Shown here: positions 2,854 through 3,777 of the stretch, one piece after another | Numbering within the stretch: the stretch's first letter is position 1 | How the letters are laid out: every line of letters starts with the position of its first letter | DNA from: Pontiella desulfatans | GTDB taxonomy: Bacteria; Verrucomicrobiota; Kiritimatiellia; Kiritimatiellales; Pontiellaceae | Assembly: GCF_900890425.1 (NCBI RefSeq) | Contig: NZ_CAAHFG010000001.1 | Location: 434,001-498,000 of the forward strand | Direction: 5' to 3' | DNA: 64,000 bases | The notes under the pieces: model-generated | What the model saw: only the letters and a program-made list of their open reading frames with translations | Told to the model about the DNA's origin: nothing | The model's database searches: none | Made by a program: the position numbers and the translations under genes

Positions 2854-3777
2854 ATGGAAAAGGGCGCATACGATCCGGAAAAGCATCATCGACGATCGAT
2901 CCGGCTGAAGGGGCATGATTATGCGGGCGGCGGGCTTTATTTCATCACCCTCTGCGCGCATCGGGATGCCATCGCCGCCATGCAAGGCAAGCCCTTCGCA
3001 CCTATGAAAGCGCTCATTGCTGAGCGCATGGCCATTACCGCCGAAAAAAATCCTCAGATGGAATGGGGCGAAAGCATCATCATGCCCGATCATTTCCATG
3101 CGCTCATCCGCATCCGTAAAGGGGGCTCCCTCGATTTGGGGAATATCATTGGCGGATTCAAGGCTGGCGTTTCTCGGGAATGGCGCAGGGACGAGGCAGG
3201 CAAAGCGGGCAAGGCAGGCCTTGCCCGTACGGGCGGGATCGCTCCCGCCCTTCCCCGGGAAATGCGCATCTGGCACCGCAATTATTATGAAATGATTGTG
3301 CGCTCGGCGGAAGCGGAGGCGAAGATTGCAGAATATATCCGGATGAATCCCTGGCGGTGCGTGCAGGAGCTGGGCAGTGGCCTGCGCGGCATGGGCAACC
3401 CGGCGCTGTGGAATGCCGAAAAGATGGGCGTGCTCTGCAGCCGCAATGCGCCGCGCCCCAAAAGCATCCCGAAAGCGGCGGTCTACCTGGGCGGCTTCCA
3501 TTCGCCGATGGAAAAGGAAATCCTTGAAAAGCTGCTGGAGCACAAACGCCCCGTGATCTGGTGCCCGGCGTGGGGGCTGGAACGGGCCGCATTTGCACCG
3601 GGCGTGCGGGAAGCCCAGGAACAAAATCGGATGCTGATCCTCGAAATGCGCGATACGGCGGGCAATCTGGCGGCGGCCGAGGCGCGCAACCGCTTTGTGT
3701 TGGAACACGCCGACCAGCGATGGATCTCGTATGTGCAGCCGGGCGGCATGCTCGCCCACCTCCTGCGCGAAGGGTAG
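2854..3777 (+). CDS. REP-associated Y1 transposase (RAYT) with a DprA/LOG-like C-terminal extension
   Basis: 307 residues. The start RRSIRLKGHDYAGGGLYFIT, the HUH motif in MPDHFHALI (His80, His82) and the catalytic Tyr region WHRNYYE (Tyr144/145), followed by EYIRMNPWR, are diagnostic of the TnpA-REP/RAYT branch of Y1 single-strand transposases, which act on palindromic REP sequences. Typical RAYTs end soon after. Here residues ~190-307 form an extra domain with GGFHSPMEKE, a CPAWGLE loop and EARNRFVLEHAD, which resembles the Rossmann fold of DprA/LOG-like proteins (compare RNR in DprA). Two perfect hairpins lie in-frame at residues ~118-133. No signal peptide. Surrounded by type I R-M remnants. 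Confidence 0.85.
   Translation: MEKGAYDPEKHHRRSIRLKGHDYAGGGLYFITLCAHRDAIAAMQGKPFAPMKALIAERMAITAEKNPQMEWGESIIMPDHFHALIRIRKGGSLDLGNIIGGFKAGVSREWRRDEAGKAGKAGLARTGGIAPALPREMRIWHRNYYEMIVRSAEAEAKIAEYIRMNPWRCVQELGSGLRGMGNPALWNAEKMGVLCSRNAPRPKSIPKAAVYLGGFHSPMEKEILEKLLEHKRPVIWCPAWGLERAAFAPGVREAQEQNRMLILEMRDTAGNLAAAEARNRFVLEHADQRWISYVQPGGMLAHLLREG
3207..3250. repeat. Two adjacent perfect hairpins inside the RAYT gene
   Basis: GGGCAAGGC-AG-GCCTTGCCC (3207-3226) and GGGCGGGA-TCGC-TCCCGCCC (3231-3250) are separated by GTAC. Both are perfect palindromes with 9- and 8-bp arms, like a BIME. They encode in-frame residues between the HUH half and the Tyr half of the transposase, a normally variable loop. Confidence 0.8.

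Follow-up and report, generated by a model that had tools for sequence, protein, structure and literature searches.

In-frame REP-type hairpins in the coding sequence of a RAYT fused to a DprA-like domain in Pontiella desulfatans and its relatives

The window analyzed here is a stretch of 64,000 nucleotides of the Pontiella desulfatans genome, and the gene of interest within it encodes a RAYT core followed by a DprA-like domain (Table 1). The N-terminal 154 residues correspond to the Y1/RAYT core by both profile and structure matches. NCBIfam NF047646 (REP_Tyr_transpos) was matched at E 8.3e-16, with a score of 58.2 bits that lies below the curated cut-off of 80, and the Pfam Y1_Tnp match had an E of 0.004. 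No relative of the protein was found in the PDB by sequence. An AlphaFold model was available with a pLDDT of 89, and the top Foldseek match of the core was the RAYT-REP complex 4er8 (E 2.7e-07); comparison of the core with IS608 TnpA (2vju) gave a VIA Z of 12.6. We assign the gene to the RAYTs on the HUH and Tyr motifs, which lie in a Y1 transposase fold and are kept in 51 homologues, and on the GTAG-tagged REPs that are present in low copy in the genome and inside the paralog L004.

Table 1. Positions of the features of the RAYT-DprA-like gene, numbered along the window.
Feature	Position	Strand	Remarks
ORF, 307 aa: RAYT (HUH-Tyr) core and C-terminal DprA-like domain	2854..3777	+	
HUH-Tyr nuclease core, residues 25-154	2926..3315	+	structure matches
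HUH motif H80-F81-H82	3091..3099	+	H80 and H82 invariant in 51 homologues
Hairpin 1	3206-3227	+	CGGGCAAGGC-AG-GCCTTGCCCG; stem 10, loop 2; encodes GKAGLAR
Loop, about residues 120-139, landing site	3214..3270	+	predicted disordered
GTAC between, and common to, both hairpins	3227-3230		
Hairpin 2	3231-3250	+	GGGCGGGA-TCGC-TCCCGCCC; stem 8, loop 4; encodes GGIAPAL
Y144-Y145, catalytic tyrosine motif RNYYE	3283..3288	+	nearly invariant in 51 homologues
C-terminal DprA/SLOG-like domain, residues 169-307	3358..3774	+	structural comparison

The C-terminal domain has a SLOG/Rossmann fold by structural comparison. Residues 169-307 gave a VIA Z of 13.8 against the E. coli protein ShosA (8zva) and of 11.3 against two DprA structures (4ljr and 3uqz), with 134-137 residues aligned at 2.4-2.8 Å. 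The domain shares the fold of these proteins but differs from them in being fused to a RAYT. Membership of DprA by sequence was considered and rejected, as the C-terminal part has no significant match to any Pfam family, PF02481 included, and the only match of PF02481 in the window's genome is a separate DprA. A dN/dS of ~0.21 in comparison with L052, the closest homologue, shows purifying selection on the gene.

The 8.66-Mb genome holds two further intact RAYT homologues and two decayed ones. L007 (G000:C1:4037738-4037902) is a decayed RAYT-DprA gene with stop codons in which two REP-type hairpins are kept at the site of residues 66-73, and L008 (G000:C1:3616784-3616891) is a decayed RAYT-DprA copy that has apparently been internally deleted. 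At another locus, L026/L009 (G000:C2:338273-338665), a RAYT-like domain apparently continues one open frame from a CobQ sequence, which we take by eye to be cobyric-acid-synthase-like; the palindromes GGGACGGGTTCCACCCCGTCCC and GGGCAAGGTGGAACTTGCCC are found there, near the junction and in the RAYT loop, respectively.

The original prediction had placed two perfect palindromes separated by GTAC between the HUH and Tyr motifs, and sequence inspection found it exact in coordinates, frame and stems. Both hairpins (3207-3226 and 3231-3250) are perfect and in frame, at about residues 118-132 of the protein. The 20-nt core of hairpin 1 is GGGCAAGGCAGGCCTTGCCC, with an outer pair that extends the stem to 3206-3227, and the full 20 nt of hairpin 2 are GGGCGGGATCGCTCCCGCCC. 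When the peptide was kept fixed and local codon usage was applied, two stems of at least 8 were found in 0.015% of 20,000 synonymous redraws and one stem of at least 10 in 0.4%, so the window hairpins exceed chance. Folding of the hairpin region as single-stranded DNA gave a z of -3.3, with 0 of 200 shuffles equally good, and folding as RNA gave a z of -2.6 against shuffles. A reading as a terminator was rejected, as no T-run comes after the window hairpins. A comparison of the 5′ flank of the ORF with its 3′ flank gave no terminal inverted or direct repeats of at least 9 nt.

Intact REPs of this hairpin family have the form GTAG-hairpin-GTAC, with GTAC as the tag on one side. GTAG at the 5′ foot of the stem is absent outside both window hairpins, which have GTAC on their shared side instead; GTAG is present at this site in several relatives. 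In published assays, a change of GTAG to GTAC still allowed binding by the S. maltophilia RAYT but abolished cleavage, and the same change shifted the cut site of the Marinomonas RAYT (PMC8266576). Because they carry GTAC in place of the canonical GTAG, the window hairpins may be bound but poorly cut. Nicking of the gene by its own enzyme, as suggested in the original prediction, is a hypothesis.

The stem of hairpin 2 has one further copy in the 8.66-Mb genome, an intergenic GTAG-tagged REP between two genes that we take by eye to be nqrE- and nqrF-like, and hairpin 1 has no other copy there. The paralogous RAYT L004 contains an internal GTAG-tagged REP that is identical to an intergenic copy at 24/24 nt. 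Other parts of the genome have four or more additional palindromes of the GGGCGAC or GGGCGGG type with a GTAG tag. The pattern searches did not find a large genome-wide REP population: GTAS-tagged candidates were no commoner than the reversed control, and about 10 palindromes were true GTAG/GTAC ones, two in the window gene, one in L004, one in L031 and the rest mostly intergenic. The L031 copy (G000:C1:2726145) is GTAG-tagged and in frame in an ORF of 766 aa, presumably, by eye, similar to a type I restriction R subunit. The reading of the window pair as a REP-like double hairpin in frame in a RAYT gene was right. Neither of the observations that the original prediction had named as refuting it was made: the genome has related palindromes at other loci, and related transposases have palindromes at the equivalent position.

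For the relatives, REP-type cores were defined as GGGC...GCCC with at least 6 of 7 outer pairs and were mapped in 51 aligned genes, the window's included. Such cores are carried by 46 of the 51 genes, 90 cores in total, at six sites that correspond to window residues 48, 66-73, 91, 122-131, 198-207 and 246-251. Coil accounts for 40% of the residues in the window's model and for 77 of the 90 cores. The window's own landing loop sits between helix αC (95-119) and strand β4 (140-148) of the model, with pLDDT below 50 at residues 121-127; some relatives use the β3-αC site for a hairpin. The tags were in the sense orientation (GTAG 5′ and/or GTAC 3′) for 47 cores, reversed for 13 and undecided for 30.

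Homologue alignment had been proposed as a check on whether the loop is always palindromic. The palindromic loop is kept in L052 and L110, but L053, L054, L056, L057, L058 and L061 have an ordinary loop with no REP hairpin at the window's site. L052 has the same hairpin 1 as the window gene and L110 a compensated variant, hairpin 2 is at the same place in both, and the hairpin-GTAC-hairpin arrangement is kept in all three genes with compensating stem changes. In-frame tandem growth of a stem arm was also seen in αC-β4 loops, for L044 (ACLAP) and L052 (GKAGLE) in repeat units of 15-18 nt and for L110 (RGE) in 9-nt units.

The phases of the 90 cores are distributed 50/34/6, and a single hairpin sequence can be translated in each of them, as RGDTHVAR, as GATCVSP and rarely in the third, so the peptide is not the shared thing. 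Selection of the peptide itself (GKAGLAR, RGDTHVAR), with the palindrome as a by-product of codon choice, would fit the similar loop peptides of the window gene, L052 and L110. It is extremely improbable, being disfavored by a phase use that yields unrelated peptides from one hairpin and by the rarity of two stems among synonymous recodings of the window peptide.

Exact GGGCGACN4-8GTCGCCC palindromes were counted in 43 genomes of the order, mostly draft MAGs. RAYT homologues cover 26 kb of the 126.6 Mb (0.02%), for an expectation of 0.015 palindromes, and 26 of the 70 detected lie inside them, an enrichment of ~1,800-fold in which related genes are not independent and the number of events is overstated. 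The 23 genomes with a RAYT homologue hold 63 of the 70, and in the single-contig genome G029 all three copies are in RAYT. The hairpin-1 type, GGGCRAGG, has 7 copies in the 43 genomes, 5 of them in RAYT intervals. Around the named loci, the density of cores falls from 2.13/kb inside the ORF to 0.32/kb in the nearest 300 bp and to 0.06/kb beyond. By these counts, the hairpin family is denser in the RAYT ORF than anywhere else in these genomes. Separately, the reversed control CCCGCTGN4-8CAGCGGG is frequent in G031, G034 and G012 (8-14 copies), possibly as another palindromic repeat family.

On a quick tree built without the loop columns (15 open forks; decayed hairpins scored as absent), the minimum numbers of presence changes at the six sites were 9, 4, 7, 7, 8 and 6, and the phase at the window's site changed at least four times. 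These presence changes indicate that hairpins entered or left the same few loops repeatedly. A single ancestral insertion was also considered and is disfavored by this tree, subject to its open forks and its scoring of decayed hairpins. The original suggestion of a tolerated landing event is borne out and can be strengthened, with landings that recur across relatives, at few loop sites and in different phases.

Among gene pairs in which only ~40-55% of synonymous third positions agree, the identity of the hairpins at the window's site often reaches 90-100%; synonymous sites are near saturation, and at this site the hairpins stay perfect with paired stem changes. For 23 distinct hairpins, two-sided changes were found in 23 cells against 6.9 in shuffles, a count inflated by the picking of cores for pairing, and the covariation score was 0.381, inflated by the same choice, where slid structures scored no higher than 0.134. 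The covariation is compatible with a constraint that acts on the hairpin and also with fresh REPs taking the place of older ones.

One alternative is that the hairpins are neutral ancient passengers, from chance REP landings in permissive loops long ago that were inherited and tolerated. The disordered loop in which they lie and the double hairpin common to the window gene, L052 and L110 are compatible with such an origin, and in-frame REPs and RPEs are known in many unrelated genes (PMC3733652). Neutral inheritance is nevertheless quite unlikely in view of the repeated gain or loss on the tree, the two phases at one site, the strong enrichment in one gene family and the far better conservation of the hairpins than of synonymous sites.

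The perfect stems kept with two-sided changes, the strong RNA and DNA folding and the presence of hairpins in 46/51 genes could also reflect a selected regulatory element, hairpins in the RAYT gene or mRNA that are bound by the RAYT, or that slow translation, and so limit its own expression. A conserved element would be expected at one site, whereas the six sites are scattered from the N- to the C-terminal end, the phases differ and some homologues have no hairpins; we regard this alternative as unlikely.

Several known systems resemble the one described here. Rickettsia palindromic elements (RPE) likewise insert in frame as palindromes and give proteins extra loops, but they are not known to be tied to a RAYT gene. 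Intragenic REPs in general, including GTAG-tagged palindromes of which some are in frame in genes, were described by Di Nocera et al. 2013 (PMC3733652); the intragenic copies in that work are a minority spread over many genes, whereas here they are concentrated in the RAYT itself. The original prediction started from the view that RAYTs act on palindromes outside their gene, which is true normally, but in-frame REPs between HuH and Y in RAYT genes were reported in 2018 for TnpAREP/RAYT subclass 2.4, equivalent to Bertels group 4 (Quentin et al. 2018, PMC6006769).

The window gene shares with subclass 2.4 the in-frame REPs between HuH and Y. In subclass 2.4, however, the insertion is at β3-αC and there is no C-terminal extension, whereas the window protein has its insertion between αC and β4, its relatives use five further sites, and a 139-residue DprA-like domain is present. 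On account of these two differences from subclass 2.4, we class the window gene as a variant in which a RAYT is fused to a DprA-like domain and in-gene REPs occur at multiple sites. The Bacteroidales/Bacteroidia loci L126, L127, L130, L135, L136 and L137 have near-identical double-foot REPs (GTAGGGGCAGGTTT.AAACCTGCCCCTAC) that lie in frame in the stretch from HUH to Tyr; the GTAG...CTAC double-foot REPs of L126, L127 and L135-L137 reproduce the subclass 2.4 pattern. The principle of in-gene REPs is not new, but the form found here is: the DprA-like fusion, the multi-site recurrent hairpins, the ORF as their main home and the stems that are kept. A search of the open-access literature gave no previous account of a RAYT-DprA fusion, a negative result that does not prove its absence.

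The probable explanation is that an inverted pair of REP-type hairpins settled in frame in the disordered αC-β4 surface loop of a RAYT fused to a DprA-like domain, and that the permissive loops of a RAYT gene repeatedly receive its own REPs, by landing or by copying, and retain them in frame. Sequence comparison points firmly to repeated entry of REP hairpins into the RAYT ORF in this lineage, at six loop sites and in frame, and their gathering looks like recurring self-landing and not a one-off accident. The enzyme would act on single-stranded DNA near the place of its production, or would recombine REP copies between RAYT paralogues, and we infer that its substrate hairpins would thereby be deposited in its own gene. 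In-frame landings would survive because the loops tolerate insertions and each of the three frames of the common GGGCGAC hairpin is free of stop codons. Perfect stems would persist if re-insertion or conversion keeps renewing the copies, or if the hairpin has a use, whether as resident substrate or as autoregulatory site.

The ORF is about 7 times denser in cores than its 300-bp flanks, so local landing with a frame filter would be insufficient, since the flanks should then hold more. A target preference, conversion among RAYT paralogues, or selection for some benefit is needed in addition to proximity.

More tentatively, the coding sequence of the RAYT-DprA fusion could be the principal reservoir of its REP family, with an enzyme that preferentially seeds and refreshes its own gene or the paralogues, gene and substrate traveling together and little or no intergenic REP population. 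The single-contig genome with all its GGGCGAC palindromes in RAYT points to this possibility, which we consider less likely than not.

The lineage bears on the spread of REPs and on the cellular role of RAYTs, and the presence of a DprA-like partner domain suggests that RAYTs are linked to the handling of incoming or replicating single-stranded DNA. With gene and substrate in one ORF, the fusion would be a compact system for testing RAYT-driven insertion, and a lineage in which hairpins land mainly in the RAYT gene, at repeatable sites, would provide a natural record of such insertion with a readable history.
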